Position numbers and translations under genes: made by a program. Below are positions 8,801 to 63,295 of a stretch of 64,000 nt of DNA, piece after piece. The notes under the pieces were generated by a model. That model was not told the DNA's origin. It did not search any database and saw only the letters and a list, made by a program, of their open reading frames with translations. The stretch spans positions 6,463,501-6,527,500 of the forward strand of contig BSQZ01000022.1 of the NCBI GenBank assembly GCA_033239005.1. Direction: 5' to 3'. Position 1 is the first letter of the stretch; every line of letters starts with the position of its first letter. This stretch comes from Lamellibrachia satsuma. Its lineage: Eukaryota > Annelida > Polychaeta > Sabellida > Siboglinidae.

Positions 8801-11800
8801 GTTAGTATGTAGTGAATCAGTTAAGTCATAGATTAACTATATCTGACAACTTATTGCGAAGTGATACGATCAAATCTAACTTACATTTCAATGGAAGAAG
8901 ACTTATGTAATCTGGACTGGGCTCAATTCCACAAGGAATTGGAATTATTCAGTTCCTTTCAATTCCGGAATTTGAATTGAAAGATTTTGAACAAAAGAAA
9001 TTGGAATTGAAGGAAAAGGAATAATAATTGATCCTCATTTTGTTGATCTGGCCGAACCCCACCTTCCAGTCAGTCCATAAACAGCAGACGTCTTATCAGC
9101 TCACATAAACAATGAAACAATAGCAGGCTTTAGCAGCTAAGCCTAGTTAGTAGGGTTGACTTGCTGAGGCAAGAAACCATGATCAAAAGACAGACTTGTG
9201 TGCATTAGAAGTCTGCTGTTAATAATTGCAGTTAAGTAGCTGGATATGTGCTAGACTTCCAGTGTAAATAATAAATATGTATTTCCGTTTGAGCTAATGT
9301 TTGTGAGAGAATATTAAATGCTTTCATTTGTGCTTAACGATGCAACTCATCCTTTCACTCTCAATTAGATAACTACAATCCTGGAAGTCCATTTGCTCAC
9401 CTTGTGCATTAGGGGTGATATGTGTTCATCACAGAAGTTACAGACAGGCTTTGTGTGAATGTGCATACTCTGAATGCTTCAAATTGATTGTACATAATAG
9501 TTTAAATAGAAAACTTATAAATTTCGAGGTTTTGCCAGGAGGGCGTTTTTCCGGGTTGTTTTTTCTGTGTCTGTGTATTCCTAGACTAAATGCATTCATA
9601 ATGTTCATGTAACTATTTTTAAAGTGTGTTGAAAAAACTGTTGGAAAAATTACCTATTGAATTATTTAGAAAAAATAATTTAATTGGAATTGATTTGGAA
9701 TTGAAATATTTCAGCAGGAATTGGAATTGATTAAAAGGAATTGAAAGAAAAAGGAATTGGAATTGATTAGAAGGAATTGACCCAGCCTTGGTGGTGATGT
9801 TTCTGGCTGCTCCTTGTCTCTCCAGGTCTTACTGGTGTCAGACAATGCTAAAGTCAGGAAGATTGTCACCTGTGTCAAGTGGGTCCTGGGCCACCTGCAG
9901 AACCTGACGGCAGTGAGGACCGTCTCTCAGTTGGTGGTCTGTTTCAAGGTATGTCAGTCTACTTGTGACAGCAGTGAGGACCATCTCTCAGTTGGTCTGT
10001 TTCAAGGTATGTCAGTCTACTTGTTGGGACAGCAGTGAGGACCATCTCTCAGTTGGTCTGTTTCAAGGTATGTCAGTCTACTTGTTGGGACAGCAGTGAG
10101 GACCATCTTTCAGTTGGTCTGTTTCAAGCTACGTCAGTCTACTTGTTATGACAGCAGTGAGGACCATCTCTCAGTTGGTCTGTTTCAAGGTACGTCAGTC
10201 TACTTGTTGTGACAGCAGTGAGGACCATCTCTCAGTTGGTCTGTTTCAAGGTACGTCAGTCTACTTGGTGTGACAGCAGTGAGGACCATCTCTCAGTTGG
10301 TCTGTTTCAAGGTACGTCAGTCTACTTGTTATGACAGCAGTGAGGACCATCTTTCAGTTGGTCTGTTTCAAGCTACGTCAGTCTACTTGTTATGACAGCA
10401 GTGAGGACCATCTCTCAGTTGGTCTGTTTCAAGGTACGTCAGTCTACTTGTTATAACAGCAGTGAGGACCATCTTTCAGTTGGTCTGTTTGAAGCTACGT
10501 CAGTCTACTTGTTATGACAGCAGTGAGGACCATCTCTCAGTTGGTCTGTTTCAAGGTATTTCAGTCTACTTGTTATGACAGCAGTGAGGACCATCTCTCA
10601 GTTGGTCTGTTTCAAGGTACGTCAGTCTACTTGTTATAACAGCAGTGAGGACCATCTCTCAGTTGGTCTGTTTCAAGGTACATCAGTCTACTTGTTATGA
10701 CAGCAGTGAGGACCATCTCTCAGTTGGTCTGTTTCAAGGTATTTCAGTCTACTTGTTATGACAGCAGTGAGGACCATCTCTCAGTTGGTCTGTTTCAAGG
10801 TACGTCAGTCTACTTGTTATGACAGCAGTGAGGACCATCTCTCAGTTGCTGGTATGTTTCTGTGTATGTCATAACATACCAAATATAAGCAAACTGAACC
10901 ATTTATTCCTAATGTAATGAAACAGAAAGGAGCTGTCTGTGCATCAATATTACTGGGAAGATACCATAATAGTTCTTTATCTTCCATTAAAACATCAATT
11001 TCACGTAAACAAAATATACGTACATTGTAATCTTGTCTTAGGTATAAAACAACATTTAGGATATTTATCCAATTTTACCAGGTCTTTTAATTATCAAGTT
11101 TAACACTTCTTAAATTATGACAAACTGTAAATTATTCCAATATTACAGTTTGGCGAAAATGGAAAAGAAAAAATATGTGTACCTGGAATTTCTTTGAAAC
11201 AACATGACCATAGAGAAGCAGAGACTGAATTGTCGATGTTAGTTAGCAGACATGCTATTATTGTTTTACAGAGTTTCACAGAGACACTGGCTCAACTGAT
11301 CAGTTTGTTGGATAAGCGACAACACAACCTCATCGATTCCCACCAGAGGGAGTGCATCATTGTTGCCATGACAACACTGAAGAAATGTGTGCCGATGTTG
11401 AAGAGCAGCGTGCAGACGTTTGTGAAGTATCCAAAGAACCCCCAAGTCTTGGTGAGTGACGGCAGGAGTCAAATACACAACATAGCAGCTACTAAGTCTT
11501 GGTGAGTGACGGCAGGAGTCAAGTACACAACATGACAGCTGCTAAGTCTTGGTGAGTGACGGCAGGAGTCAAGTACACAACATGGCAGCTACTAAGTCTT
11601 GGTGAGTGACGGCAGGAGTCAAGTACACAACATGACAGCTACTAAGTCTTGGTGAGTGACGGCAGGAGTCAAATACACAACATGACAGCTACTAAGTCTT
11701 GGTGAGTGACGGCAGGAGTCAAGTACACAACATGACAGCTACTAAGTCTTGGTGAGTGACGGCAGGAGTCAAGTACACAACATGACAGCTACTAAGTCTT

Positions 11801-14800
11801 GGTGAGTGACGGCAGGAGTCAAGTACACAACATGACAGCTACTAAGTCTTGGTGAGTGACGGCAGGAGTCAAGTACACAACATGACAGCTACTAAGTCTT
11901 GGTGAGTGACGGCAGGAGTCAAGTACACAACATGACAGCTACTAAGACATCAAGTTATGAACATATAATACATTTTGAAAAATATTTTTCATCTTAAAAT
12001 TCTGAAATATTTTAATAAATTGCATGGACACTATATTTAGATAGTAAAGTGTTATGGCAAGCACAGTTACTGAGATAAAATAATTATTATTAATTAGGCA
12101 TCACTAAATTATTGAAAGACTGGGTACTGTTACTACAGGCTAGTTGGGAGTACTCAGTGGGGCAGGTGATTGAGTCAGGTACTGTTACTACAGGCTAGTC
12201 GGGAGTACTCAGTGGCGTAGGTGATTGAGTCTGGTACTGTTATTACATGCTAGTCGGGAGTACTCAGTGGGGCTGGTGATTGAGTCTGGTACTGTTACTA
12301 CAGGCTAGTCGGGAGTACTCAGTGGGGCTGGTGATTGAGTCTGGTACTGTTACTACAGGCTAGTCGGGAGTACTCAGTGGCGTAGGTGATTGAGTCTAGT
12401 ACTGTTACTACAGGCTAGTCGGGAGTATTCAGTGGGGCAGGTGATTGAGTCTGGTACTGTTACTACAGGCTAGTCGGGAGTACTCAGTGGGGCTGGTGAT
12501 TGAGTCTGGTACTGTTACTACAGGCTAGTCGGGAGTACTCAGTGGGGCTGGTGATTGAATCTAGTACTGTTACTATAGGCTAGTCGGGAGTACTCAGTGG
12601 GGCAGGTGATTGAGTCTGGTACTGTTACTACAGGCAAGCCGGGAGTACTCAGTGGGGCAGGTGATTGAGTCTGGTACTGTTACTACAGGCTAGTCGGGAG
12701 TACTCAGTGGGGCTGGTGATTGAGTCTGGTACTGTTACTACAGGCTAGTCGGGAGTACTCAGTGGGGCAGGTGATTGAGTCTGGTACTGTTACTACAGGC
12801 AAGCCGGGAGTACTCAGTGGGGCAGGTGATTGAGTCTGGTACTGTTACTACAGGCTAGTCGGGAGTACTCAGTGGGGCAGGTGATTGAGTCTGGTACTGT
12901 TACTACAGGCGAGTCGGGAGTACTCAGTGGGGCAAGTGATTGAGTCTGGTACTGTTACTACAGGCAAGCCGGGAGTACTCAGTGGGGCAAGTGATTGAGT
13001 CTGGTACTGTTACTACAGGCTAGTCGGGAGTACTCAGTGGGGCTGGTGATTGAGTCTGGTACTGTTACTACAGGCAAGTCGGGAGTACTCAGTGGCGTAG
13101 GTGATTGAGTCTGGTACTGTTATTACAGGCTAGTCGGGAGTACTCAGTGGGGCAGGTGATTGAGTCTCTTCATGACATCATTGACCTCACTGAAGGCAAG
13201 AAGACAGTTGATGACACCCAAGTCATACAAGTGGAGACGTCTGGCTACTTTGTCACTGTCATTAACAAGGTACACCAGATTTATGTCTCTTATGATCTCC
13301 TGGTACTTGACTTGTTGTTGAATGTTGAATTTCTTAAATACTATCGAATGAGAAGTTTTGAATGTTTGCCAGGTTCTCATATAAAGCACTTTTATTTCTT
13401 TAATTATTGCTAAAAACGTGCTCAAAATTTCATTATTTCTCATGGATCTTTTGTTTATAATAAATCAAAGTCTTACTTTGGATTAATCTACTTTGGAAGT
13501 TAAAAATTTAAGTCCATTGATTAAACATTGTATTGATCAATTGTATGCTTTTAATTCATGATGTTTGTACTTTTATACAAATATATTTTTTATCCTGACT
13601 TATTTTATATATATTTTTACTACACGTCATGTATGTATATTTATATATATATATTTTTTTCTCACTACATGTACCTCTATTGTTCAACATGTGTGTATAT
13701 TTATGTTTTTTTACTTGTATGTGTATATATGGGCTGTTGCTGGAAATAAAACATTATTATTATTATTATTATAAAAAACAGTCCCAGATAGCGTTGTTCA
13801 GTTTCTGTGAAATATTTTGAGGTTTTAGCTTCCACAATTACTTTTCAGTTGATGATTCAACTTTCTGAGAAAAATCGTCAGAAGAATGGATTAACTGGTG
13901 GCGAACTGGACTCGCTGGTAGAGGGCGCTGTCAGTCATAGCATGGCCATTGCACATATTTCGGCAAGTCACCACCGTGATCTGATCAGACAAAACTGTCA
14001 GCGTGTGAGTTTTACATCAGTCACTTTATACTGCTTCATTCAACTGTCACATACAGTTGTATTCTTTCACAGAAATGGGTGGATTTGATTTTAGTTGCTT
14101 TCTTTAAGTGGTAAATATTTATGTTCCATTGTGCTCAGCTTGCTATTGATATTTTGTATCTATAGTTGTTATTATTGTTATCTTTATTATTATAATTATT
14201 ATTATCTTTAGTTATTATTATTATCTTTATTTCAACTCAAGATCCACAAACATGTACATAATAAACAAAATGATAAAGTTCTGTAGAAGAAAAGGCAGTT
14301 AAAAAAACTAATATTTGGTGTTGAGATATAAAATCAAAGGATTACATTCTTCCTTATTTAACACAGCGTCATCGCTACAATCTTTCATTACCACCAATTG
14401 ATAAATTATATTTGCATAATCATTGTGATATGTGCCATTTACATTGATATGCAACAGTTCTTAAGATTTGTACTTAACAGCACTTGGAGGCGAACACAGT
14501 AGTTCATGGTATGTCACGTTATATCTGGACATAATGTCTCTTGTATTCTGGCCCATAGTGCACCAATGAGCAATGTCTGTGTATGTCAGTGTCTTAGACA
14601 GAAGTGATGTTGTGTACCACCACAGACTATATATGGCCATACATGTGGCTGAGTAAACGTTGTTGTCACACTAGTGAAGTACTGAACCCTTGAATGCACC
14701 AATAACTGAACCACAGACTATATATGGCCATACATGTGGGTGAGTAAACGTTGTTGTCACACTAGTGAAGTACTGAACCCTTGAATGCACCAATAACTGA

Positions 14801-44800: not shown

Positions 44801-45440
44801 CTTAGAAGGAATCTCCAGGAGGTTAGACTGGGATAGAAAGGGAATCAACATAAACAGTGGTCATCTGAGGCTTTCTGAGCCATCTTTGCTGATGATATTG
44901 TTCTTAGGACAAACAAAACAAAGAACTAGAGGAAATGTTAAATGAGAACAACAACTTATGGATCAGAGAGCAAACTAAAATCCAGGATATCATAAAACTA
45001 GTTAAAATCAAGAAATGGGGATGGGCGGGACACCTTGCCAGAACTAAGGACAACAGGTGGATAAAGATAACAACAGAATGGAGACCAATGACAGGTTCTT
45101 GAATTCAGGGACGACAAAAAACTAGATGGAGACATGAAATTGTACAGTTTGCTGGCATGACATGGATGAGAACGGCACAGGACAGAAGTAAATGGTACCA
45201 GCTCGGGGTGACCTTCGCCCTCAGTGGGCTGACAATGGCTGAGATGATGATGCCACATGAAATAATGTGGGACATTATGTAACAAACTTATTTCAACTTC
45301 AATTAAAAGTGAATGTATTAAATTAGATGGATAATAAATTAGTTAAAACATAGTGCATGTATAATTATGCATAGTAATATATAAATATAAAATTAATGAA
45401 ATAAATAATAATAAATTTATTAAAACATGACATATTAGTA

Positions 45441-45502
<62 letters not shown>

Positions 45503-54500: not shown

Positions 54501-57500
54501 TATTGTCTGTGACAATGTGATTCTTGAGCAGGTCGAAGTGTGTCCACTTTGCGCCATGTGACGCAGATGACAGCAATGACACAATGGAGATGACCGCGTC
54601 CATGTGGATCACAGAAGATGACCGGTCTCTGTCCATGGATTGCTTCCTTGAGTTGTTTGTTCTCTCTGTCTTTCAACATCTTGTGTTGCTGTCTCTGCTG
54701 TTCACCATTGCTGTCTCTGCTGTTCACCGTCGTTGTCTCTGCTGTTCACTGTCACTTGTCTTGTCACAAGTCACTTGTAGAGTTCCTTTCACTTTACTTT
54801 GTTTCACCGAGCACACTTCCAGCTTCATACTTGGCTCAGTTCACCGAGCACTCTTCCAGCTTCATACTTGGCTCAGTTCACCGAGCACACTTCCTGCTTC
54901 ATACTTGGCTCAGTTCACCGAGCACACTTCCAGCTTCATACTTGGCTCAGTTCACCGAGCACTCTTCCAGCTTCATACTTGGCTCAGTTCACCGAGCACA
55001 CTTCCTGCTTCATACTTGGCTCAGTTCACCGAGCACACTTCCTGCTTCATACTTGGCTCAGTTCACCGAGCACTCTTCCTGCTTCATACTTGGCTCAGTT
55101 CACCGAGCACACTTCCTGCTTCATACTTGGCTCAGCTCACCGAGCACACTTCCTGCTTCATACTTGGCTCAGTTCACCGAGCACACTTCCTGCTTCATAC
55201 TTGGCTCAGTTCACCGAGCACACTTCCTGCTTCATACTTGGCTCACTTCACCGAGCACACTTCCTGCTTCATACTTGGCTCAGTTCACCGAGCACTCTTC
55301 CTGCTTCATACTTGGCTCAGTTCACCGAGCACACTTCCTGCTTCATACTTGGCTCAGTTCACCGAGCACTCTTCCTGCTTCATGCTTGGCTCAGTTCACC
55401 GAGCACTCTTCCTGCTTCATACTTGGCTCAGTTCACCGAGCACACTTCCTGCTTCATACTTGGCTCAGTTCACCAAGCACTCTTCCTGCTTCATACTTGG
55501 CTCAGTTCACCGAGCACTCTTCCTGCTTCATACTTGGCTCAGTTCACCGAGCACTCTTCCTGCTTCATACTTGGCTCAGTTCACCGAGCACACTTCCTGC
55601 TTCATACTTGACTCAGTTCACCGAGCACTCTTCCTGCTTCATACTTGGCTCAGTTCACCGAGCACTCTTCCTGCTTCATACTTGGCTCAGTTCACCGAGC
55701 ACTCTTCCTGCTTCATACTTGGCTCAGTTCACCGAGCACTCTTCCTGCTTCATACTTGGCTCAGTTCACCGAGCACTCTTCCTGCTTCATACTTGGCTCA
55801 GTTCACCGAGCACTCTTCCTGCTTCATACTTGGCTCAGTTCACCGAGCACTCTTCCTGCTTCATACTTGGCTCAGTTCACCGAGAACTCTTCCTGCTTCA
55901 TACTTGGCTCAGTTCACCGAGCACTCTTCCTGCTTCATACTTGGCTCAGTTCACCGAGCACACTTCCTGCTTCATACTGGTTACACAATCTGTAGATAAT
56001 TTGGTCCATTCATTTATTCTCCTCTGTGAGAAAGAGTATTTTCTGAGATCCAATCGACACTGGTCCTTTACTAATGTTACTTTGTGTCCTCTAGTTCTAT
56101 TATCTTTCTTGAGTGAGAAAACCCATTCAATATCTTAAAAACTTCAAATTGATCTCCTCTTAACCTCCTACTGTTCACACATAGTCATGCCTGCTGTTCA
56201 TGCATGGTCTTGTCTACTGTTCACGTGCAAATGGTCCTGTGTGCTCTCACACATGGTCCTGTCTAATGTTCATACATGATCCTTTCTACTGTTTACATAT
56301 GGTCATGTCTGCTTTTCACTTGAGGTACTTTCTGTTTGCTGTTCACATATGGTCCTTACTGCTGTTCATACATGGTCCTTACTGCAGTTCATACATGGTC
56401 CTTTCTGCTAACATTGCTGTGTTAAGTTGTCTCATTTCGTCTTTGTTCTTTCTACATTCTGGGTTTGACCGAATATGTCCTGTTTTGAGATTATGAAGCT
56501 GCTGTTCACACAATACCCTGATTACTGTTCATATATGGTCATATCTACTGTTCATGCATGATCCTGTGTGCTCTTCATATTTGGTCCTTTCTTTACTTCA
56601 CACATGGGTCCTCAGCTATTTATACATTGGTCCTTGTTGATCTTCACACATGATCAAGGTTGCTGTTCACACATGGTCCTCACTGCTGTTCACACATGGT
56701 CTTTACTGCTGTTCACATGTGGTCCTTACTGCTAACATCACTCTGTTAAGTCTGAGTCTTTGATCGTTCAGATACTTCAATACAACATTCCATGTTCGCC
56801 CGAGTCTGTCTTGTGTTAAGTCTCAGTCTGTGATCGTTCAGATACTTCAATACAACATTCCATGTTCGCCCGAGTCTGTCTTGTGTTGAGACTCAGTCTT
56901 TGATCGTTCAGATACTTCAATACAACATTCCATGTTCACCCGAATGTGTCTTGTGTTGAGACTCAGTCTTTGATCGTTCAGATACTTCAATACAACATTC
57001 CATGTTCACCCGAATGTGTCTTGTGTTGAGACTCAGTCTTTGATCGTTCAGATACTTCAATACAACATTCCATGTTCACCCGAATGTGTCTTGTGTTAAG
57101 TCTCAGTCTTTGATCGTTCAGATACTTCAGTACAACATTCCATGTTCGCCGAATGTGTCTTGTGTTGAGACTGAGAAGTTGAAGCATCTTTTGTTGTCCG
57201 TCTATGTGTGTTTTTACAGTGACATTGCATGGAGACTTGTACACACTGCATGTTCTCTTTACATGCATGGCAACATTACTTGCATGATAACATGATATGC
57301 ATGGTAACATTACATGAGTGGTAACATTACATGCATCATGACATTGCATGCATGGTAACGTTACATGCGTGGTGACAATGCGTGCACGTGATGTGTGTGT
57401 GTGTGTGTGTGTGAATGTTGATACTAACATTAAAGCTGTCAACACAAATCTTGCTTGCTGTGTTTGTACTTTTATCTTTGACTGCATGCGCTTGACTGCA

Positions 57501-60500
57501 TGTGCTTGACTGCATGAACTTGACTGCATGCGCTTGACTGCATGTGCTTGACTACATGCACTTTAACAAGATTTGCCATCCAAGCCAGAGGCTCAGATGG
57601 CAAGTGGACAAGGAAGCGATTGGCTTATCGAGAGTCCAACAATGTTCATCTATGTGTAACCCACCCTTCTGTGATATGTGTCAACCTTGTTTTTAAACAT
57701 ATTCACGCTGCTTGCAGTTACACAATCCGTAGACAGTTAATTTTGTTCCATTCATTTATTGTCCTCTGTGAGAATGAGTTCTTCCTGATAGACTTCATTA
57801 GCTTAACTGCATGCACTTGACCGCATGCGCTTGACGCCATTGTGATTTACTTGACTTTTGAAAAGACATTAATCTGACCAGTGTATACTTTTTATATGCA
57901 ATTGATAGAACTCAATTTGTGTTTTGTACTGTGTGGAACATGTCAGACTAACATATATAAAACATTTTAATATATGTAAGAGATGTAAGAGAACATTTTG
58001 ATTGTCTGCTGTAAGATAACATTTTGGTTGTCTGCTGTAAGATAACATTTTGGTTGTCTGCTGTAAGATAACATTTTGATTGTCTGCTGTAATATAACAT
58101 TTTGATTGTCTGCTGTAAGATAACATTTTGATTGTCTGCTGTAAGATAACATTTTGATTGTCTGCTGTAAGATAACATTTTGATTGTCTGCTGTAAGAGA
58201 ACATTTTGAAGTATAAACTAACAGTGACTTCCATGGCATTTGTCACATGCAACATATCAGTTCTTACAGTTCTCAGTTACTCAGTAAACGTTGCCCCCTG
58301 ATAGACACTGTCACATTTAATAAATTGGCCATTACATGTTAGCAAAGTCCCAAGTTGTTGACATCACTCTGTTCATTGTATTGTAGTTGACATCACTCTG
58401 TTCATAGTATTGTAGTTGACATCACTCTGTTCATTGTATTGTAGTTGACATAATTCTGTTCATGGTATTGTAGTTGACATCACTCTGTTCATGGTATTGT
58501 AGTTGACATCACTCTGTTCATTGTATTGTAGTTTACATCACTCTGTTCATTGTATTGTAGTTGACATCATTCTGTTCATGGTATTGTAGTTGACATCACT
58601 CTGTTCATTGTATTGTAGTTGACATCACTCTGTTCATGGTATTGTAGTTGACATCACTCTGTTCATGGTATTGTAGTTGACATCACTCTGTTCATGGTAT
58701 TGTAGTTGACATCACTCTGTTCATTGTATTGTAGTTGACATCACTCTGTTCATGGTATTGTAGTTGACATCACTCTGTTCATGGTATTGTAGTTGACATC
58801 ACTCTGTTCATGGTATTGTAGTTGACATCACTCTGTTCATGGTATTGTAGTTAATGCATTACATTGAGATCACTATGTTGATGGTATAGTATTGCATATT
58901 GTATTGCATTGTTTTGATGGTATTGTATTGTACATTGTGTTGATTGCAGTGAGCCAGAGACAGTGTCGGTGTCAGTCGAGTATAACAAGGCAGGAGAGAG
59001 GATGTTGAAGGAGATCTCTGACGATCCTCGTGTGCAACACCCAACACCTACGAGACATAGAGCCACTGACAACTCTGTCTGTGTAGGTGGACTTAAACAG
59101 AACCGATCTTTATTTGACTCTACACCCACAAGACATAGAGCCACTGACAACTCTGTCTGTGTAGGTGGGCTTAAACAGAACCGATCTTTATTTGACTCTA
59201 CACCCACAAGACATAGAGCCACTGACAACTCTGTCTGTGTAGGTGGACTTAAACAGAATCAATCTTTATATGACTCTACACCTACAAGACATAGAGCCAC
59301 TGACAACACTGTCTGTGTAGGTGGACTTAAACAGAATCAATCTTTATATGACTCTACACCCACAAGACATAGAGCCACTGACAACACTGTCTGTGTAGGT
59401 GGACTTAAACAGAATCAATCTTTATATGACTCTACACCCACAAGACATAGAGCCACTGACAACACTGTCTGTGTAGGTGGACTTAAACAGAATCAATCTT
59501 TATATGACTCTACACCCACAAGACATAGAGCCACTGACAACTCTGTCTGTGTAGGTGGACTTAAACAGAATCAATCTTTATATGACTCTACACCTACAAG
59601 ACATAGAGCCACTGACAACTCTGTCTGTGTAGGTGGACTTAAACAGAATTAATCTTTATTTGACTCTACACCCACAAGACATAGAGCCACTGACAACTCT
59701 GTCTGTGTAGGTGGACTTAAACAGAATCAATCTTTATATGACTCTACACCCACAAGACATAGAGCCACTGACAACTCTGTCTGTGTAGGTGGACTTAAAC
59801 AGAATCAATCTTTATATGACTCTACACCCACAAGACATAGAGCCACGACAACACTGTCTGTGTAGGTGGACTTAAACAGAATCAAACTTTATACGACTCT
59901 ACACCCACAAGACATAGAGCCACTGACAACACTGTTTACATAGGTGGACTTAAACAGAATCAAACTTTATATGACTCTACACCCACAAGACATAAAGCCA
60001 CCGACAACACTGTCTGTGTAGGTGGACTTAAACAGAAACTTTATATGACTCTACACCCACAAGACATAGAGCCATTGACAACACTGTTTGCGTAGGTGGA
60101 CTTAAACAGAATCAATCTTTATATGACTCTACAGCTACAAGACATAGAGCCACTGATAACTCTGTCTGTGTAGGTGGACTTAAACAGAATCAATCTTTAT
60201 TTGACTCTACACCCACAAGACATAGAGCCATTGACAACACTGTCTGTGTAGGTGGACTTAAACAGAATCAATCTTTATATGACTTTACAGACTTTCATTG
60301 CTTCAATTTACTGGTTATTCAGCCGTTCCAGACAAGCATATTTTCATTTGGACAACCAAAATTTTACGTCCTCTTCCGGCCACACAAAAGTTACATAACA
60401 TTGCCTAAAGTTTAAAGAAATGTATTTCTGTAATTCTTTTCAAAACGAAATGTATTTTATTAACTATTATCTTAAAGAAATGTCTTGCTAATTATTAATA

Positions 60501-60753
60501 ATACAAATTACTATTTTGTTCTTCATATTTTGAGAGTTTGTGTTGTATGGTGCACAACCCAAAGCCTTGGGTTTGACGTTGTTTCTAAGTGGTTTCCTTC
60601 TCCCTTTCCCACTGGCAGTCTTCCCCAGGCTGGCTCCCTGCCGACATGAACCGCTGGGAAGACGAGAACAACATCATCGTCAACATAGCCAAGGTCATAT
60701 CAGGACAACTTGGTGACATGGTCGAGTACATGCGTGGTCATGGCTCTATTAAG
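5726..60753 (+). CDS. Vinculin/alpha-catenin superfamily protein, partial multi-exon gene (24 exons, 1414 codons)
   Basis: Twenty-four exons with AG/GT borders join in one open frame of 4242 nt; every intron phase fits its neighbours (the exon 22 donor was chosen partly by phase). Family members are helical-bundle adaptors that link adhesion receptors or cadherins to F-actin at the cytoplasmic face of the membrane. Seen order: vinculin-like D1 (residues ~1-252), one central bundle (~253-381), D4-like region (~382-646), an acidic linker, a ~720-residue extra helical region with apparent D4-like repeats, then the first tail helix. Human vinculin is 1066 residues and alpha-E-catenin about 906, so this partial protein is already longer. 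No FPPPP VASP-binding motif is visible. The first exon and the rest of the tail are absent. Family assignment is strong; choice of subfamily (vinculin, alpha-catenin, catulin, or a new branch) is open. Confidence 0.85.
5953..6270. repeat. 46-bp minisatellite in intron 1, ~7 copies
   Basis: The unit is cactaagtcagtagtgcatt...gctaggcagtgatacacacaga. It contains the inverted pair cactgctaggcagtg. Confidence 0.95.
6430..6588 (+). CDS. Exon 2: D1, RDM motif and RRHLIRAAKDLLEGT helix
   Basis: Acceptor ggcctgacag, donor ttgaag|gtgaga; 53 codons, phase 0-0. The start VMQRDM aligns with vinculin ILKRDM, and the end aligns with vinculin ARDYLIDGSRGILSGTSD. The upstream intron carries three imperfect copies of tttgcttggcctgacagg, and the last one provides the acceptor. 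Confidence 0.85.
6589..7437. other. Intron 2, first part
   Basis: AT-rich non-repetitive sequence. No exon or element recognised. Confidence 0.4.
7438..8357. mobile_element. Candidate non-autonomous DNA transposon (MITE), ~0.9 kb
   Basis: The ends are imperfect inverted repeats: left gagtgccgaatacacg, right (read in reverse) gagtgccaaatgaacg. Both ends also carry further related blocks, including a 23-bp direct repeat (ggcactatactattattaaa at 7510 and 8280). The interior has no transposase. Target duplication is unclear. One interior site at ~7670-7690, read on the minus strand, looks like a tRNA A box (tgtagctcagttggg) but lacks a matching B box. Confidence 0.45.
8395..8650. repeat. 23-bp minisatellite, ~11 copies
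   Basis: The unit is gacatgcatggattataact plus aag or aac. It contains the palindrome catgcatg. Confidence 0.92.
8918..9787. mobile_element. Candidate MITE with ctgggtcaattcc-type termini
   Basis: The left end ctgggctcaattcc and the right end (reverse) ctgggtcaattcc form an imperfect inverted repeat. Both subterminal regions are rich in ggaattggaattga motifs. The interior codes for nothing recognisable. The right end is ~38 bp before exon 3. No clear target duplication. Confidence 0.45.
9826..9948 (+). CDS. Exon 3: D1, VRKI helix
   Basis: Acceptor ctctccag, donor ttcaag|gtatgt; 41 codons, phase 0-0. VLLVSDNAKVRKI matches vinculin LLLTFDEAEVRKI almost position by position, and the following helix matches the vinculin segment that ends LVTYTK. 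The last ~41 nt of the exon and its donor are the first copy of a 59-bp tandem array. Confidence 0.88.
9908..10853. repeat. 59-bp minisatellite carrying the exon 3 end and its splice donor, ~16 copies
   Basis: The first copy is exonic (gacggcagtgaggaccgtct ... ttcaag) and continues across the donor to cagtctacttgt. Later copies lost 3 bp (ggtggtctg to ggtctg) and keep ttcaag|gtatgt or ttcaag|gtacgt, so about 13 intact decoy donors follow the real one. Confidence 0.95.
10854..11271. other. Intron 3, unique part
   Basis: AT-rich sequence with a pyrimidine tract before exon 4. Nothing else recognised. Confidence 0.4.
11272..11451 (+). CDS. Exon 4: D1, DKRQ helix pair
   Basis: Acceptor gttttacag, donor tcttg|gtgagt; 60 codons, phase 0-0. 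LLDKRQHNLIDSHQRE matches vinculin MIDERQQELTHQEHR, and TLKKCVPMLKSSVQTFV matches the next vinculin helix. The end of the exon with its donor seeds a 50-bp array. Confidence 0.88.
11445..11945. repeat. 50-bp minisatellite carrying the exon 4 end and donor, 10 copies
   Basis: The unit agtcttggtgagtgacggca ... gacagctacta repeats the last 7 nt of exon 4 and donor ttg|gtgagt. Copies differ at one or two positions. Confidence 0.95.
12123..13170. repeat. 55-bp minisatellite carrying the exon 5 acceptor and exon start, 19 copies
   Basis: Each unit has tactgttactacag| then the exon start gctagtcgggagtactcagt and gtgattgagtctgg. Only the final copy continues into exon 5. Fifty-five is not a multiple of three, so earlier acceptors would give shifted or broken exons. 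Confidence 0.95.
13129..13269 (+). CDS. Exon 5: end of D1
   Basis: Acceptor ttattacag, donor aacaag|gtacac; 47 codons, phase 0-0. REYSVGQVIESLHDIIDLTE matches vinculin [20 protein letters not shown]. The acceptor and first ~40 nt are the last copy of a 55-bp array, so about 18 decoy acceptor/exon starts lie upstream. The last copy is chosen because only it continues into open coding sequence. Confidence 0.85.
13560..13775 (+). mobile_element. Probable LINE 3' end with an ATT-repeat tail
   Basis: AT-rich sequence ends in gggctgttgctggaaataaa followed by cattattattattattat, the form of a LINE 3' end with polyadenylation signal and microsatellite tail. No coding part is recognised. Confidence 0.4.
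13849..14004 (+). CDS. Exon 6: central helical bundle, first half
   Basis: Acceptor acttttcag, donor cagcgt|gtgagt; 52 codons, phase 0-0. The helix with LDSLVEGAVSHSMAIAHI and HHRDLIRQNCQR matches the pattern at the start of a vinculin central repeat (AEGHRLA...YRQDLLAKCDR) and the alpha-catenin RRERIVAECN helix. Only one such unit is present. Confidence 0.78.
14155..14340 (-). mobile_element. Probable LINE 3' end on the minus strand
   Basis: Read on the minus strand, ttgagttgaaataaagataa precedes ATA/ATT repeats, a typical CR1-like 3' end. Only the 3' part is recognisable. Confidence 0.4.
14617..16835. repeat. 91-bp minisatellite in intron 6, ~24 copies
   Basis: The unit includes ctatatatggccatacatgt, ggctgagtaaacgttgttgt and gaacccttgaatgcaccaat. 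Early copies have gaagtactg and aataactgaa; later copies have gaaatactg and aacagctgaa, so two variant blocks lie next to each other. Confidence 0.95.
16845..17495. repeat. 29-bp minisatellite in intron 6, ~22 copies
   Basis: The unit is tatggacccaatagctacac plus cactgcctg. It starts directly after the 91-bp array. Confidence 0.95.
17635..17865 (+). CDS. Exon 7: central bundle, second half, to the D4 boundary
   Basis: Acceptor cccctgcag, donor tcacag|gtgagg; 77 codons, phase 0-0. VFKETTEPLSRLLQASLS matches vinculin VFSDTTTPIKLLAVAA and alpha-catenin SFLETNVPLLVLIEAA. Going straight from one central repeat into this motif is the alpha-catenin arrangement. Confidence 0.85.
17930..18420. repeat. 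Degenerate ~32-bp repeat in intron 7
   Basis: Repeated tgtcatacaatgtgacaagt and tgtgtcatatcaa blocks of variable spacing. Much more diverged than the other arrays, so probably older. Confidence 0.75.
18454..18655 (+). CDS. Exon 8: D4-like helix with an in-frame KEVKCD repeat
   Basis: Acceptor tctttacag, donor tctaaaa|gtacac; phase 0 in, phase 1 out. An 18-bp unit repeats about 3.5 times at 18480-18549 and encodes KEVKCD; it falls where vinculin has NREEVFDERAANFE. The rest, FQRHAELVCQVSRLVAAG, matches the next D4 helix. The donor was placed by phase and by the match SKNVRTI / NKSTVEGI across the intron. Confidence 0.8.
18690..20015. repeat. 44-bp minisatellite in intron 8, ~30 copies
   Basis: The unit is ttacttacccatgactggtg gttcagctggattctctcct gatg with few variants. 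It starts ~35 bp after the exon 8 donor but does not include it. On the minus strand each copy holds a donor-like gggtaagtaa. Confidence 0.95.
20224..21420. repeat. 39-bp minisatellite carrying the exon 9 acceptor, ~30 copies
   Basis: The unit is gttgttgtag|gtgtcagaac catcaacagttgagttgtg. The final copy has gttgttgtag|atgtcag and continues into exon 9. Several copies are shortened. The earlier copies are decoy acceptors. Confidence 0.92.
21395..21601 (+). CDS. Exon 9: D4 core, W...IDGIID helix
   Basis: Acceptor gttgttgtag, donor tcag|gtacga; phase 1-1. LEQLDPEVVPAILACC matches vinculin ARELTPQVVSAARILL; MQEWTNNAELLVSAIDGIID matches [21 protein letters not shown]. The acceptor and exon start form the last copy of a ~39-bp array. 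Confidence 0.88.
21602..22305. other. Intron 9
   Basis: Unique AT-rich intron. No element or array recognised. Confidence 0.5.
22306..22503 (+). CDS. Exon 10: D4, DV..W helix
   Basis: Acceptor attgtgcag, donor acaagg|gtgggt; phase 1-1. IEISASQIEVDVSEWC read across the junction matches vinculin LLDASEEAIKKDLDKC. RKNHDPFCRRALRKTIRQL matches SEDPKFREAVKAASDEL. Confidence 0.85.
22675..24315. repeat. 67-bp minisatellite in intron 10, ~24 copies
   Basis: The unit is agttaacacaaaccttggca gcaggttgcctcaccaactc aatggagttcactcactctt agtattc. One copy (~23030-23060) is shortened. No exon sequence is included. Confidence 0.95.
24898..25086 (+). CDS. Exon 11: last helix pair of the first D4-like region
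   Basis: Acceptor tgtttcag, donor tctag|gtgtgt; phase 1-1. It matches vinculin SPMVMDAKAVAGNISD... and the helix with LLSCVARVRKTL matches ILGAVAKVREAF. Vinculin switches here to its proline-rich linker; this protein does not. Confidence 0.82.
25116..26295. repeat. 69-bp minisatellite in intron 11, ~17 copies
   Basis: The unit is gttgaaccattgtgtgaatg tagacagagagtaagtcata ctaaatcatgtatatattta tatgtctat. Each copy holds a consensus-like donor ga|gtaagt that is not from an exon. A sub-block of several units (marked by catggatata and tgtgacaatg variants) is itself repeated. Confidence 0.95.
26379..26537 (+). CDS. Exon 12: acidic linker with a duplicated donor
   Basis: Acceptor ggggacag; phase 1-1. 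It encodes DWDVSEEEEDV and then a charged helix rich in E, K and R. The last 27 nt with the donor are duplicated, so a second in-phase donor lies at 26564 and would add nine residues repeating VTGSSSLPG. A CR1 element begins about 25 bp after the second donor. It has no clear counterpart in vinculin or alpha-catenin. Confidence 0.65.
26590..29134 (+). mobile_element. CR1-type LINE, 5'-truncated and internally deleted, with an 812-codon ORF
   Basis: The ORF 26596-29034 begins in an ORF1 esterase-like (SGNH) domain: VCLPGAKIEAI and VLVHVGTNNVEREGT. At about residue 103 it jumps to the ORF2 linker after the endonuclease (KSESKNKK), so the endonuclease is missing. Reverse transcriptase follows with NYRPVSLTSVICKLLER, YLDFQKAFDKVPH, GVPQGSVLGPILFLIYINDL and FADDTKLF, and the ORF then runs to an ordinary C-terminus. 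The 3' UTR ends in a duplicated aaatcttgtt. The open RT frame suggests recent insertion. It sits in intron 12, immediately after the donor. Confidence 0.88.
29303..29474 (+). CDS. Exon 13: second D4-like repeat, first helices
   Basis: Acceptor tctttcag, donor acagag|gttggt; phase 1 in, phase 2 out. The helix DVLTMTNHLTQTAASVAEIL has the spacing of the D4 helix in exon 8 (FQRHAELVCQVSRLVAAG) and of vinculin FENHSGKLGATAEKAAAVG. The exon end and donor seed a 50-bp array. Confidence 0.75.
29464..29966. repeat. 50-bp minisatellite carrying the exon 13 end and donor, ~10 copies (left part)
   Basis: The unit is cacacagacagag|gttggta then gatacaacagccttgtggg and cttctcctg. The first copy is exonic. 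It continues at 31431 after an inserted LINE fragment. Confidence 0.93.
29967..31430 (-). mobile_element. Internal fragment of the same CR1 family, inverted, inside the exon 13 array
   Basis: Read on the minus strand: endonuclease motifs (GISESWANIDITDAELGLTG, MGDFNHVHIQWNS, LGNSDHNQI), then the linker and the first RT blocks up to LIKDHVVD. Frames are broken in at least three places. Both the ORF1/5' part and the 3' half of RT with the UTR are missing. Minisatellite lies on both sides. A simple target-primed insertion would have kept the 3' end, so rearrangement or internal capture is more likely. Confidence 0.85.
31431..31755. repeat. 50-bp minisatellite, right part of the exon 13 array, ~6 copies
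   Basis: Same unit as at 29464-29966. Some copies carry gttcacagtcaggttggtag in place of acacagacagaggtgggtgg, a variant not seen on the left side. Confidence 0.9.
31890..32040. repeat. ~43-bp repeat before exon 14, ~4 copies
   Basis: The unit is ttgtatgacacctctaacat atgtttccaggtccaactta ggtg. Confidence 0.88.
32077..32209 (+). CDS. Exon 14: second D4-like repeat, core
   Basis: Acceptor tttttgcag, donor aagaag|gtggtg; phase 2-0. TSEVMRLAPQLLHSAASVV matches exon 9 TQLEQLDPEVVPAILACC and vinculin VKTARELTPQVVSAARILL. It ends SWAKK, the start of the W helix. Confidence 0.8.
32310..32410. repeat. Short ~31-bp repeat, 3 copies
   Basis: The unit is ggcagtagcatcagaaagag with tgatattgggg. Copies are diverged. 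Confidence 0.7.
32513..32623 (+). CDS. Exon 15: second D4-like repeat, W helix and next helix
   Basis: Acceptor gtctgacag, donor acacag|gtagac; 37 codons, phase 0-0. WAKK|VTQLETLLDCQLTSW lines up with the W helix of D4. VDRVVDAVKTMNTRLLTTQ is the following helix. Degenerate copies of the exon end and donor follow in the intron. Confidence 0.78.
32605..32790. repeat. ~43-bp degenerate repeat carrying the exon 15 end and donor, ~4 copies
   Basis: The exon end cgactcctcactacacag|gt and following actttcttctagagcaagac recur as gactccccatgtgacag|gta and gactcctcacatcaaag|gta. Copies are short and diverged. Confidence 0.75.
33033..33410. repeat. 25-bp minisatellite in intron 15, ~15 copies
   Basis: The unit is ccaagtgtccaatcaagggg gcact or gcgct. 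The G run varies by a base. Confidence 0.95.
33557..33782 (+). CDS. Exon 16: helical segment after the second repeat
   Basis: Acceptor cttgctag, donor acca|gtaagt; phase 0 in, phase 1 out. It encodes two amphipathic stretches (RFLHRLVSTTVLLLQSTL and FDELTSMFLTVADMLVDT) separated by a polar Q-rich loop. By position it is equivalent to exons 10-11, but sequence similarity is weak. Confidence 0.72.
33783..34189. other. Intron 16, unique part
   Basis: AT-rich intron. No element recognised. Confidence 0.45.
34190..35062. repeat. 68-bp minisatellite in intron 16, ~13 copies
   Basis: The unit is cccattaacgttgtattgag tgagtttgtgagcccagtac aacaatctaaagcaacgagt acataaga. The gtattg and caatac words give each unit a short inverted repeat. 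Confidence 0.95.
35256..35484 (+). CDS. Exon 17: helical segment with a PPPG loop
   Basis: Acceptor ctaaccag, donor ctagag|gtgtgt; phase 1-2. A helix with SREWAAAIFCLTGHINRL is followed by a VRPPPGSSTEP loop and the helix ATIRVKELVSSVLE. The W helix resembles those of the D4-like repeats. The 3' end of a minus-strand LINE lies only ~20 bp after the donor. Confidence 0.75.
36112..37410. repeat. 45-bp minisatellite inside the L2-like RT, ~29 copies
   Basis: The unit is gtaatggcggccagtgtagc tgcctcaagagtggggcact ctctg. On the minus strand it encodes APLLRQLHWPPLPES in frame with the RT on both sides. Four minus- and plus-strand ORFs over 400 codons result. Copies are nearly identical. Confidence 0.96.
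37795..38262. repeat. 42-bp minisatellite inside the L2-like RT, ~11 copies
   Basis: The unit is atcatcatggatgaatcatg tggggatggcatctgtcata ag. On the minus strand it ends at the DDLQ segment just before the NRMVIN motif. The minus-strand RT frame has a stop in each unit; two plus-strand frames stay open by chance. Confidence 0.92.
38361..38541 (+). CDS. Exon 18: helix plus a repeat-derived C-terminal part
   Basis: Acceptor tgtccacag, donor gtgaag|gtaaag; phase 2-0. It encodes LLLDQLDDLIVQMSDCVELM and then a less helical stretch ending WEWAVK. The last ~62 nt and the donor are the first copy of a 69-bp array, so the end of the exon may itself be recent. Read-through stays open only to 38607. 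Confidence 0.68.
38479..39295. repeat. 69-bp minisatellite carrying the exon 18 end and donor, ~12 copies
   Basis: The first copy is exonic. The unit is gcagtgaag|gtaaagacaac then agagaagttgtacgcccctc acagtctggggttgttacag tgggggtgg. Sixty-nine bp is 23 codons. Confidence 0.95.
39618..39849 (+). CDS. Exon 19: third D4-like repeat, first helices
   Basis: Acceptor tatttcag, donor acaaact|gtaagt; phase 0 in, phase 1 out, as in exon 8. FQQRFEALCDKTLHAARQC is followed by TNKSAVIQRHLQDM, closely paralleling vinculin FENHSGKLGATAEKAAAVG then ANKSTVEGIQASV. The exon end and donor seed a 33-bp array. Confidence 0.82.
39838..41900. repeat. 33-bp minisatellite carrying the exon 19 end and donor, ~60 copies
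   Basis: The unit is ccttggtcacacact|gtaag then tttgtactcttgt. Variants lack gt (cacactaagttt) or have ctataagttt. More than 30 copies keep ct|gtaagttt, a near-consensus donor. Confidence 0.95.
41901..42767. other. AT-rich intron 19 segment with a 30-bp x4 repeat
   Basis: The only array is at ~42412-42530, unit tttgtaataatgataatgca tggttcctat. The end, caacttccattaaaagtgaa at ~42751, resembles caacttcaattaaaagtgaa after the RTE element. Confidence 0.6.
42768..43520. repeat. 42-bp minisatellite in the RTE RT N-terminal region, ~18 copies
   Basis: The unit is agtcctaatagagttcctca aagaaggggggacatagtat ga. It encodes EFLKEGG, the RTE motif just before the QLAELF segment that follows the array. 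Confidence 0.92.
43893..44708. repeat. 47-48 bp minisatellite in the RTE RT core, ~17 copies
   Basis: The unit is ggtgtacattcatcctacat caatatcatcaacacaatgt ataaccag. In one frame it reads GVHSSYINIINTMYNQ, the normal RTE segment before GTSTIRLH, which follows the last copy. Confidence 0.94.
45291..46072. other. AT-rich intron segment with (AT)n and diverged repeats
   Basis: An AT microsatellite lies at ~45448-45498. attaaattagatgg blocks recur at ~45316 and ~45638. At 45790-46060 a diverged ~70-bp repeat carries tgtatgttgcagctacata, similar to the real exon 20 acceptor tgtatgttgcag. Confidence 0.5.
46073..46165 (-). mobile_element. CR1-family LINE 3' UTR remnant
   Basis: It matches the reverse complement of the 3' UTR at ~29050-29130, for example ggcaagtggacaaagaagcc. 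Truncated where the 17-bp array begins. Confidence 0.7.
46168..46618. repeat. 17-bp minisatellite before exon 20, ~26 copies
   Basis: The unit is ctgccctggtcagatgt. It ends 14 bp before the exon 20 acceptor. Confidence 0.95.
46633..46761 (+). CDS. Exon 20: third D4-like repeat, W helix
   Basis: Acceptor tatgttgcag, donor atacgag|gtataa; phase 1-1. VQRHWAAKTSAFMASLHDTF matches the D4 W helix ([19 protein letters not shown]). The last ~35 nt and the donor seed a 66-bp array. Confidence 0.8.
46728..48225. repeat. 66-bp minisatellite carrying the exon 20 end and donor, ~22 copies
   Basis: The unit is acacgacacatttcagtcca actctcagatcatacgag|gt ataactacagctacagtgtt gtgttt. The first copy is exonic. 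Sixty-six bp is 22 codons, and long plus-strand frames stay open (FQSNSQIIRGITTATVLCLH). The copies at ~46859 and ~46980 are altered. Confidence 0.95.
48226..48672. other. Intron 20, unique part
   Basis: AT-rich, nothing recognised. Confidence 0.45.
48673..49012 (+). CDS. Exon 21: coding decapeptide repeat RTGEDRTQDM
   Basis: Acceptor aatgtttag, donor caacg|gtaact; phase 1-2, about 113 codons. After DAEKLL come eight copies of a 30-bp unit encoding RTGEDRTQDM (two early copies have E for Q), then a polar end DRRSFSEQVKLSV...EMQR. The repeat is highly charged and probably disordered or a single long helix. Family homologues I know have nothing similar. Confidence 0.7.
48683..48925 (+). repeat. 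30-bp coding minisatellite inside exon 21, 8 copies
   Basis: The unit is gagaactggtgaagacagga cccaagacat. It keeps the exon frame. Early copies have gaa where later ones have caa. Confidence 0.93.
49013..50039. other. Intron 21, first part, with two open stretches of unknown nature
   Basis: AT-rich to ~49540. From 49547 to ~49684 and 49692 to ~49796 one frame is open behind AG sites, but the phase does not fit exon 21 and the first stretch ends in a stop. No homology recognised. Confidence 0.35.
50040..54520. repeat. 46-bp minisatellite in intron 21, ~97 copies, with higher-order repeats
   Basis: The unit is tctgtgacaatgtgattctg ttcagtctcacagttctaca ttattg. Variant copies recur at multiples of 46: the tcaaagttct variant 552 bp apart (~50821, ~51373) and gtgacaaaatg 1518 bp apart (52253, 53771). 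The last copy runs into the exon 22 acceptor. Confidence 0.96.
54532..54654 (+). CDS. Exon 22: acidic linker, donor uncertain
   Basis: Acceptor ttcttgagcag; phase 2 in. It encodes RSKCVHFAPCDADDSND then MEMTASMWITEDDRSL. Phase 2 out is required by exon 23. The two phase-compatible GTs near the end are at 54652 and 54655 and neither is a strong donor, so the 3' end is a best guess. The acceptor sits directly at the end of the 46-bp array. Confidence 0.55.
54655..54804. repeat. Start of intron 22 with a short 21-bp repeat
   Basis: Three diverged copies of ttgctgtctctgctgttcac at ~54686-54750. Confidence 0.6.
54805..55976. repeat. 37-bp minisatellite in intron 22, ~32 copies
   Basis: The unit is ttcatacttggctcagttca ccgagcactcttcctgc. 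Variants are gcacac/gcactc and cagc/ctgc. Unit length 37 rotates the frame each copy, and since all three plus frames lack stops, two ORFs of ~500 codons arise without being genes. Confidence 0.95.
55977..56165 (-). mobile_element. CR1-family LINE fragment (RT C-terminus)
   Basis: Its reverse complement matches the segment ~28755-28965 of the forward copy, including aggttaagaggagatca and gaataaatgaatgg. Both ends are cut off; arrays flank it. Confidence 0.75.
56166..57561. repeat. Mixed degenerate repeats in intron 22
   Basis: Diverged ctgttcacacatggtcct words fill 56166-56720. A 70-bp unit containing tgatcgttcagatacttcaa repeats ~6 times at 56745-57165. Short atgcatggtaacattac words lie at 57250-57370, a TG microsatellite at ~57392-57412, and gactgcatgcgctt words at 57480-57560. 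Confidence 0.75.
57562..57800 (-). mobile_element. CR1-family LINE 3' end
   Basis: It is the reverse complement of ~28910-29125 with mismatches; it includes the aacaagatttgccatccaag 3' end and the aataaatgaatgga segment. 5'-truncated. Confidence 0.78.
57985..58206. repeat. 26-bp minisatellite, ~8 copies
   Basis: The unit is taagataacattttgattgt ctgctg. Confidence 0.93.
58360..58855. repeat. 29-bp minisatellite before exon 23, 17 copies
   Basis: The unit is gttgacatcactctgttcat ggtattgta. Diverged copies continue toward the exon 23 acceptor. Confidence 0.95.
58950..59082 (+). CDS. Exon 23: linker before the tail
   Basis: Acceptor gattgcag, donor gtctgt|gtaggt; phase 2-0. EPETVSVSVEYNKAGERML then a polar stretch TPTRHRATDNSVC. 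The donor is chosen for consensus and phase. Exon end and donor are the first copy of a 78-bp array in which this frame stays open to 59652. Confidence 0.65.
59046..60288. repeat. 78-bp minisatellite carrying the exon 23 end and donor, ~16 copies
   Basis: The first copy is exonic. The unit is cacaagacatagagccactg acaactctgtctgt|gtaggt ggacttaaacagaatcaatc tttatatgactctacac. Seventy-eight bp is 26 codons, and the exon frame stays open to 59652. Confidence 0.95.
60289..60618. other. End of intron 23
   Basis: Unique sequence with a pyrimidine tract before exon 24. Confidence 0.5.
60619..60753 (+). CDS. Exon 24: first helix of the actin-binding tail
   Basis: Acceptor cactggcag, donor attaag|gtagga; 45 codons, phase 0-0. 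The W-ED-ENNIIVNIAK segment matches vinculin KWSSKGNDIIAAAKRM and alpha-catenin KWDDSGNDIIVLAKQM; the ending MRGHGSIK resembles alpha-catenin TRGKGPLK. Exon end and donor seed a 51-bp array. The remaining tail exons were not found before 64000. Confidence 0.85.
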
Positions 60754-62322
60754 GTAGGACTTGGTGACATGGTCGAGTACATGCAAGGTCATGGCTCTAT
60801 TAAGGTAGGACTTGGTGACATGGTCGAGTACATGCGTGGTCATGGCTCTATTAAGGTAGGACTTGGTGACATGGTCGAGTACATGCAAGATCATGGCTCT
60901 ATTAAGGTAGGACTTGGTGACATGGTTGAGTACATGGCTCTATTAAGGTAGGACTTGGTGACATGGTCGAGTACATGCATGGTCACGGCTTTATTAAGGT
61001 AGGACTTGGTGACATGGTCGAGTACATGCAAGGTCATGGCTCTATTAAGGTAGGACTTGGTGACATGGTCGAGTACATGCATGGTCACAGCTCTATTAAG
61101 GTAGGACTTGGTGACATGGTCGAGTACATGCGAGGTCACTGCTCTATTAAGGTAGGACTTGGTGACATGGTCGAGTACATGCATGGTCACAGCTCTATTA
61201 AGGTAGGGCTTGGTGACATGGTCGAGTACATGCATGGTCACAGCTCTATTAAGGTAGGGCTTGGTGACATGGTCGAGTACATGCATGGTCACAGCTCTAT
61301 TAAGGTAGGGCTTGGTGACATGGTCGAGTACATGCATGGTCACGGCTCTATTAAGGTAGGGCTTGGTGACATGGTCGAGTACATGCATGGTCACGGCTCT
61401 ATTAAGGTAGGACTTGGTGACATGGTCGAGTACATGCAAGGTCATGGCTCTATTAAGGTAGGACTTGGTGACATGGTCGAGTACATGCATGGTCACAGCT
61501 CTATTAAGGTAGGGCTTGGTGACATGGTCGAGTACATGCATGGTCACTGCTCTATTAAGGTAGGGCTTGCTGACATGGTCGAGTACATGCATGGTCACAG
61601 CTCTATTAAGGTAGGGCTTGGTGACATGGTCGAGTACATGCATGGTCACAGCTCTATTAAGGTAGGGCTTGGTGACATGGTCGAGTACATGCATGGTCAC
61701 AGCTCTATTAAGGTAGGGCTTGGTGACATGGTCGAGTACATGCATGGTCACAGCTCTATTAAGGTAGGGCTTGGTGACATGGTCGAGTACATGCAAGGTC
61801 ACAGCTCTATTAAGGTAGGACTTGGTGACATGGTCGAGTACATGCATGGTCACAGCTCTATTAAGGTAGGGCTTGGTGACATGGTCGAGTACATGCGAGG
61901 TCACTGCTCTATTAAGGTAGGACTTGGTGACATGGTCGAGTACATGCATGGTCACGGCTCTATTAAGGTAGGACTTGGTGACATGGTCGAGTACATGCAA
62001 GGTCACTGCTCTATTAAGGTAGGACTTGGTGACATGGTCGAGTACATGCATGGTCACAGCTCTATTAAGGTAGGACTTGGTGACATGGTCGAGTACATGC
62101 AAGGTCACAGCTCTATTAAGGTAGGACTTGGTGACATGATCGAGTACATGCATGGTCACAGCTCTATTAAGGTAGGACTTGGTGACATGGTCGAGTACAT
62201 GCATGGTCACAGCTCTATTAAGGTAGGACTTGGTGACATGGTCGAGTACATGCATGGTCACAGCTCTATTAAGGTAGGACTTGGTGACATGGTTGAGTAC
62301 ATGCATGGTCATGGCTCTATTA
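60709..62322. repeat. 51-bp minisatellite carrying the exon 24 end and donor, ~31 copies
   Basis: The first copy is exonic. The unit is cttggtgacatggtcgagta catgcatggtcacagctcta ttaag|gtagga. Fifty-one bp is 17 codons, and frames are open for over 460 codons on each strand. One copy near 60920 is shortened. Confidence 0.96.
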
Positions 62323-63295
62323 AGGAAAACCTGGATCTCTGCATAAAACTGGAGTCAATATAATATGCAGTTATTATAGGTAAATTTGACTGTTTAAGAT
62401 ATGTTTTGGGATGTTTTGCTTTATAAGCGGTCTAACCCCAGTTTTATGATTTGTTCTTGGTCTAAACCCATTGATAGCGTCATTAATAAGGAGCATTTTT
62501 ATGAGTGTTTCTATTAGTATCAGCGTTTTTATGATTTATTCTTAGTGAAACGCAATTTTCTGTTTCAATCAGCTAAGGAACAAAATCGCGCTAATGAGCT
62601 CATAAGAATCTTAGTGAAACTGTACCCTGGGCCTGGTGTCATCTGTCACTTAGTGAAGTGGTACCTGGTGTCACCTGTCACTTAGTGAAGTGGTATCTGG
62701 TGTCATCTGTTACTTAGTGAAGTGGTACCTGGTGCCATCTGTCACCTGGTGTCACCTGTCACTTAGTGAAGTGGTATCTGGTGTCATCTGTCACTTAGTG
62801 AAGTGGTACCTGGTGCCATCTATCACTTAGTGAAGTGGTACCTGGTGTCATGTGTCACTTAGTGAAGTGGTACCTGGTGTCATCTGTCATTTAATGAAGC
62901 GGTACCTGGTGTCATCTGTCACTCATAATGGTCGACACAATAATGAGTGAATGAAATGAGTAATGATGGTTGGGGGTAACGATACCTTGAAGTATTTATG
63001 CTTCACTATAGTCAATGTGACTACACTATCAATATTAAATTTAACTATCGATAGTAAATTTAACTATAGATATTGTTTGTAAACATATTTTTTCAATTTT
63101 ATTAGGTAATTTGATTTATTTACCTCAATAATCATTGATCAGATCAGCGTCACTCACGAATTCGCCGTATTTTGAGTTAACTGCCTCCTAGTGATAATGC
63201 CACCAGTTAATTCGGGAGGTGAAACAATGCTCGATGTTTGATATATCGGATGCCAAGGATTTCGAGATTGTTAAAGCTGCAAAGGCAACTGTGTG
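62323..63295. other. Intron 24 with a 32-bp repeat
   Basis: A ~32-bp repeat (cacttagtgaagtggtacct ggtgtcatctgt, ~9 diverged copies) lies at 62625-62930. The rest is AT-rich with no exon recognised. Confidence 0.55.

Follow-up and report, generated by a model that had tools for sequence, protein, structure and literature searches.

The window analysed here, 64 kb of Lamellibrachia satsuma contig BSQZ01000022.1, carries on its plus strand one long animal gene of the vinculin family, which extends beyond both window ends and is packed with minisatellites. Tandem arrays of period at least 10 cover 58% of the window, and 12 of the 44 exon edges in the gene model, spread over 12 of its 22 exons, lie inside such an array. 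All results concern one gene on one haplotype in this one window. A gene so filled with repeats is a natural test of how cells choose the correct splice site. Choice among identical splice sites has so far been studied mostly with few engineered copies, such as the two described in PMC9225289; here the decoys come with up to 66 nt of exonic context copied alongside. With the arrays of this gene, the ‘mirage’ phenomenon would no longer be limited to amphioxus, in which minisatellite-like repeats of exon–intron boundaries are reported from Adh3, the globins BflGb6 and BflGb9, TnC and PGBD5 (PMC3087553, PMC3902484).

The gene model (Table 1) keeps the exon numbers of an earlier, sequence-only reading of the same DNA, which run to 24; numbers 11 and 22 are not among the 22 exons. 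Reading phase is consistent at 21 of 21 junctions, with the exon 12 donor (25086) and the exon 21 end (49012, moved by 1 nt) picked with phase in mind. Exons are 111–340 nt long and introns 303–9937 nt, all 21 complete introns being at least 303 nt. A rough first protein query had a single match, a predicted protein (P0001) from the vestimentiferan tubeworm Ridgeia piscesae, with 67% identity over 56% of the query; tblastn of this same protein on the window matched exons 1–9. The joined translation (1247 aa) matches the Pfam Vinculin family (PF01044) with an E value of 1.6e-61 and 209.2 bits, against a curated cut-off of 38.1, and the best stretch covers residues 4–628. At the cut-offs applied, searches of the PDB and of a large set of proteins found no relative of the second half of the protein (exons 10–24), so that these exons are supported by phase, by their open frames and by codon usage. 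A codon-usage score trained on exons 1–9 alone picked out the predicted frame for all 13 later exons, and none of 400 length-matched intronic stretches scored as high as the exon in question. The Ridgeia model ends just past the equivalent of exon 9; its annotation was perhaps broken by repeats.

Two exons of the sequence-only reading did not enter the model. For exon 11, no candidate lying outside the arrays of that intron scores higher than 6.8; the 22 exons, which are the score’s own training set, reach 27.5–93.2. Exon 22 had been given an array abutting its acceptor; the exon may exist at 54532, but it has no strong phase-consistent donor and the nearby array ends 8 nt short. Possible phase-compatible exons lie at 54532–54603 and 26379–26537, the latter adjoining a long interspersed nuclear element (LINE); the best nearby versions of both score at the low end of the accepted exons.

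Arrays were located with Tandem Repeats Finder (TRF), whose rows were merged. Nine donor edges (exons 3, 4, 13, 15, 18, 19, 20, 23 and 24) and three acceptor edges (exons 5, 9 and, weakly, 2) fall inside arrays with periods of 30–78 bp, each array with its own unit. The sequence-only reading had named the same nine donors and the acceptors of exons 5 and 9, all of which TRF places inside arrays together with their splice sites, and had put edge arrays at about half of the exons; this agrees with 12 of 22, a count that includes the exon 2 array missing from its list. A donor duplication that it described at exon 12 was not borne out, as the array there begins only 40 nt downstream of 25086, the donor that agrees in phase. 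In intron 4 (11452–13128), a donor-bearing array with 10 GT donors stands at the start and an acceptor-bearing array (18 of 19 AG) at the end.

Table 1 Gene model and tandem arrays in the window. In the kept counts, the true edge is one of the matches for every array but that of exon 2.
Feature	Position	Strand	Period (bp)	Copies	Exonic nt	GT or AG kept	Remarks
Vinculin-family gene, 22 exons in window	5726..60753	+					Splice signals and open frames
Exons 1–5	5726-5878, 6430-6588, 9826-9948, 11272-11451, 13129-13269	+					
Exons 6–10	13849-14004, 17635-17865, 18454-18655, 21395-21601, 22306-22503	+					
Exons 12–16	24898-25086, 29303-29474, 32077-32209, 32513-32623, 33557-33782	+					
Exons 17–21	35256-35484, 38361-38541, 39618-39849, 46633-46761, 48673-49012	+					
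Exons 23, 24	58950-59086, 60629-60753	+					
Acceptor-bearing array, exon 2	6336..6432	+	30	3.3	3		Weak
Donor-bearing array, exon 3	9905..10848	+	61	15.5	44	GT 12/15	
Donor-bearing array, exon 4	11444..11946	+	50	10.1	8	GT 10/10	
Acceptor-bearing array, exon 5	12123..13167	+	55	19	39	AG 18/19	
Acceptor-bearing array, exon 9	20222..21416	+	39		22	AG 25/26	Complex
Donor-bearing array, exon 13	29464..31757	+	50		11	GT 10/10	Count for first part
Donor-bearing array, exon 15	32607..32807	+	38		17	GT 1/1	Diverged; sole close match is the true edge
Donor-bearing array, exon 18	38476..39285	+	69	11.8	66	GT 12/18	5 of the 6 matches without GT look out of register
Donor-bearing array, exon 19	39827..41898	+	33	63	23	GT 37/60	
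Donor-bearing array, exon 20	46720..48228	+	66	23	42	GT 23/23	
Donor-bearing array, exon 23	59044..60289	+	78	16	43	GT 16/16	
Donor-bearing array, exon 24	60708..62325	+	51	32	46	GT 31/31	
In-frame coding minisatellite, exon 8	18479..18553	+	18				Translated; peptide KEVKCD
In-frame coding minisatellite, exon 21	48688..48925	+	30	7.9			Translated; peptide MRTGEDRTQD

The exonic edge is the first copy at donors and the last at acceptors, as the sequence-only reading had noticed, but this order is uninformative because an intact protein requires that geometry. The exon copy itself looks like the ancestral one: the exon 3 edge shares with Ridgeia a codon that is absent from 12 of the 13 listed array copies. 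Across ten arrays (exons 2 and 15 left out), the exon copy is the least (once with ties) or second least consensus-like in five, and at exons 5, 9, 19, 20 and 24 it is not among the two least consensus-like.

With the true edge as probe, GT was found to be kept in 152 of 184 donor matches and AG in 44 of 47 acceptor matches. When strength was scored with a matrix that the other exons supplied, the true site was equalled or exceeded by 156 of the 220 decoys, divided into 137 of 175 at donors and 19 of 45 at acceptors. All 30 decoys at exon 24 equal or exceed the true donor, none of the 18 at exon 5 reaches the score of the true acceptor, and the exon 15 array has no close decoy among the probe matches; eight of the nine donor arrays each hold 8 to 34 decoys as good as the true donor. 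Translated in the exon frame, all nine donor arrays run into a stop 0.9–7.2 units beyond the donor and contain 3–30 stops each, and they are therefore intronic rather than coding. The idea of coding arrays, with the exon extended through the array, was rejected on these stops. Among ten arrays (exons 2 and 9 not scored), 31 GT or AG cells are mutated against 16.5 expected; exon 19 supplies 25 of them, and without it the count is 6 against about 10. Decoy GT and AG are thus neither protected nor purged in general.

Whether the number of edge arrays exceeds chance was assessed for the 40 arrays (the sequence-only reading had counted about 42) with a score of at least 100, at least 3 copies and a period of at least 10 between 5726 and 64000, excluding the two inside exons 8 and 21; the test was post hoc, made after the pattern had been noticed in this single gene. 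If collapsed units may fall at any point of the collapsed sequence, 2.98 hits are expected against 12 seen (P 1.8e-5), which reproduces the earlier estimate of about three by chance. That estimate does not survive when each array is kept in its own intron: introns stripped of their arrays are short (collapsed median 579 nt, n=21, with seven at 140–335 nt), so an array confined to its intron often touches an edge, and the expectation rises to 5.27 (P 0.0019), or to 6.07 with LINE-related sequence masked (P 0.0081). Over ten settings of this per-intron null, P ranges from 0.001 to 0.05; without the last, cut-off intron there are 6 to 11 hits, depending on the cut-off, with P 0.004–0.09. The excess lies at donors (9 seen, 2.7–3.1 expected; P 0.0007–0.002 at the main cut-off), and acceptors are at expectation (3 seen, 2.6–3.0 expected). 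If introns had a fixed ancestral length, 12.5 hits would be expected at 200 nt, 8.9 at 300 nt and 4.5 at 641 nt, the mean of the two array-free introns. The excess is thus a moderate one, restricted to donors, found post hoc and dependent on past intron length. It lends partial support to the earlier proposal that duplication is favoured at splice junctions, or that arrays starting there are kept: under the per-intron null it is about twofold rather than fourfold. The proposal is possible, and of its two halves ‘kept’ is likelier than ‘favoured’.

We lean towards a reading in which tandem duplication is frequent throughout, is tolerated when it runs over an exon edge, and leaves decoy donors that are ignored under exon definition. 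Duplication is not confined to junctions, because arrays fill most of the window and occur inside two exons. The position of the junction within the unit is spread evenly (exonic fraction 0.10–0.96, Kolmogorov–Smirnov (KS) p 0.55, n=12), and the 27 fully intronic arrays are evenly spread along introns with no position gradient (KS p 0.35). Such a genome would generate tandem duplications very often, and some units would span an exon edge by chance, a neutral form of seeding. The copy joined to the exon body would stay under selection and the extra copies would be intronic, so that an array could grow only into the intron. Extra splice sites would be mostly harmless where short exons between long introns are read by exon definition, which would favour the donor nearest the upstream acceptor, that is, the first donor. 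Decoy acceptors would be less safe, and fewer would survive.

Published minigene work is consistent with this outline. In all five minigenes of one study that paired identical strong donors, splicing under exon definition took the upstream donor exclusively, and under intron definition the downstream donor was preferred; for acceptors, the upstream bias was lessened but not reversed (all as reported in PMC9225289). The geometry of the present gene is that of exon definition, because its exons are at most 340 nt long and every complete intron is at least 303 nt. We infer that the first donor is the one used in this gene. Downstream decoy donors would then be mostly harmless and upstream decoy acceptors less so, which fits nine donors against three acceptors.

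Several results weigh against this reading. Donor edges are about threefold over the per-intron expectation (P 0.0003–0.011 over six settings), and tolerance by itself accounts for this excess only if introns used to be much shorter than the present collapsed median of 579 nt; with ancestral introns averaging about 200 nt, the excess over all edges vanishes. The difference between nine donors and three acceptors is not significant by itself (p 0.146). The same minigene report describes the upstream preference among near-equal donors as only a bias transcriptome-wide, at about 60% of events, and found that larger exons were skipped when donors were weakened (PMC9225289).

The donor excess is what would be expected if tandem duplications in this lineage arose preferentially at donors, as a mutational hotspot caused, say, by R-loops or a stalled polymerase at the intron start, and the absence of enrichment at acceptors points the same way. 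We nevertheless consider a hotspot unlikely. The position of the junction varies from unit to unit, the enrichment was found post hoc in one gene, and it is gone for 200-nt ancestral introns. Nor do the remaining 32 edges (13 donor, 19 acceptor) show young duplications: none has a copy matching at least 15 of 20 nt within 250 nt, a comparison of low power; 2.9% of 1500 control positions have such a copy, and 0.9 would be expected among 32 edges. Doubtful to the same degree is the wider proposition that donors are the preferred birthplace of minisatellites genome-wide, through transcription- or splicing-linked damage at the intron start; were it true, gene after gene would gain trains of identical donors, and exon definition alone would select the correct one.

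Selection might instead retain the arrays, with decoys sometimes used and frame-preserving units adding repeated peptides or tuning protein amount. Of the 12 edge arrays, 7 have a period divisible by three, compared with 6 of the 28 others (Fisher p 0.032), although leaving out the weak exon 2 array, whose period is uncertain, gives 6 of 11 (p 0.061) and donors alone 5 of 9 (p 0.091). Past the donors of exons 19, 20, 23 and 24, no stop interrupts the frame for 3.0–7.2 units. The stops that accumulate in the exon frame of every donor array, together with GT and AG that are neither protected nor purged, make this improbable. An assembly or sequencing artefact is very improbable and found no support: the copies of any one array are not identical, and no two edge arrays share a unit. 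It is extremely improbable that the introns owe their origin to an exon segment containing AG/GT that was duplicated in tandem (the Rogers model, as cited in PMC3087553). Units do hold up to 66 exonic nt of 69 (exon 18), but in the eight donor cases with the next exon in the window the array ends 319–4734 nt before the acceptor, and in all eight the unit resembles the start of the next exon no better than shuffled sequence does (40–162 of 200 shuffles reach the score).

Beyond the exon edges, the two coding minisatellites, in exons 8 and 21, both have periods divisible by three; in Ridgeia, the stretch at the exon 8 site is shorter and degenerate. The exon 13 array is in two parts with like units (29464–29965 and 31431–31757), separated by minus-strand LINE-related sequence (29966–31430); because this sequence splits the array, the array predates the insertion. 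No target-site duplication was found at its flanks, where the longest direct repeat (11 nt) belongs to the array unit. At 26491–29034, an open frame of 847 aa has the sequence of a LINE-like reverse transcriptase. A protein cluster (P0003) of 2269 member sequences is 98% identical to it over 84% of the frame, and from this similarity the element looks young and abundant in an ENA assembly. A search for related loci through the LINE reverse transcriptase confirmed none in genome contigs (13 pattern matches) or viral contigs (11). On the minus strand at 36011–37768, a 585-aa open frame contains a 45-bp array with 29 copies in frame; judged by a motif, this frame looks reverse-transcriptase-like, in which case the array may sit in a mobile-element gene. 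At 43500–44708, a 48-bp array starting at 43892 begins in a stop-ridden stretch that, by eye, resembles a decayed reverse-transcriptase fragment.

Parallels exist for separate aspects of this locus. Intron 1 of an earthworm metallothionein gene, also from an annelid, contains large minisatellite arrays, and duplicated fourth exons there are absent from transcripts; as far as that report describes them, its arrays are not placed on splice junctions, unlike those here (PMC12783039). In Caenorhabditis elegans, the minisatellite CeRep25B near alternative exons is likewise statistically tied to splicing decisions, but it is described as a dispersed repeat with regulatory motifs and not as a local copy of an exon edge (PMC4039745). 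The minigenes of PMC9225289 share identical tandem donors and long flanking introns with this gene; they carried two artificial donors, in contrast to 8 to 34 natural decoys in eight of the nine donor arrays. The sections consulted of the Ridgeia genome paper mention tandem repeats solely as an annotation step (PMC9921365). In the open-licence PMC literature, no paper combines Siboglinidae with minisatellite, and boundary-spanning arrays appear, among the matches listed, in amphioxus only.

It is with those amphioxus mirages that the likeness is closest. As in the published descriptions (PMC3087553, PMC3902484), tandem units run across a donor or an acceptor, here at 12 of 44 edges, and both 5′ and 3′ boundaries are duplicated, here nine donors and three acceptors, of which that of exon 2 is weak. 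The AG or GT is retained by most copies though not by every one (here 44/47 acceptor and 152/184 donor matches), and the present periods of 30–78 bp fall within the published range of unit sizes, 10–72 bp for Adh3 and about 150–160 bp for the globins (PMC3087553). Further traits of the mirage type are boundary copies that escape homogenisation, for which the five of ten arrays with a divergent exon copy give a mixed picture, normal splicing of the mRNA, and length polymorphism with somatic instability. On their sequence, the present arrays have the structural features of mirages. They differ in belonging to another animal group, in occupying 12 edges of one gene, and in reaching 10 to 63 copies in most arrays, against 3 and 6 in two BflGb6 haplotypes. 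As far as our searches show, the animal group, the density and the copy numbers are what is new here.

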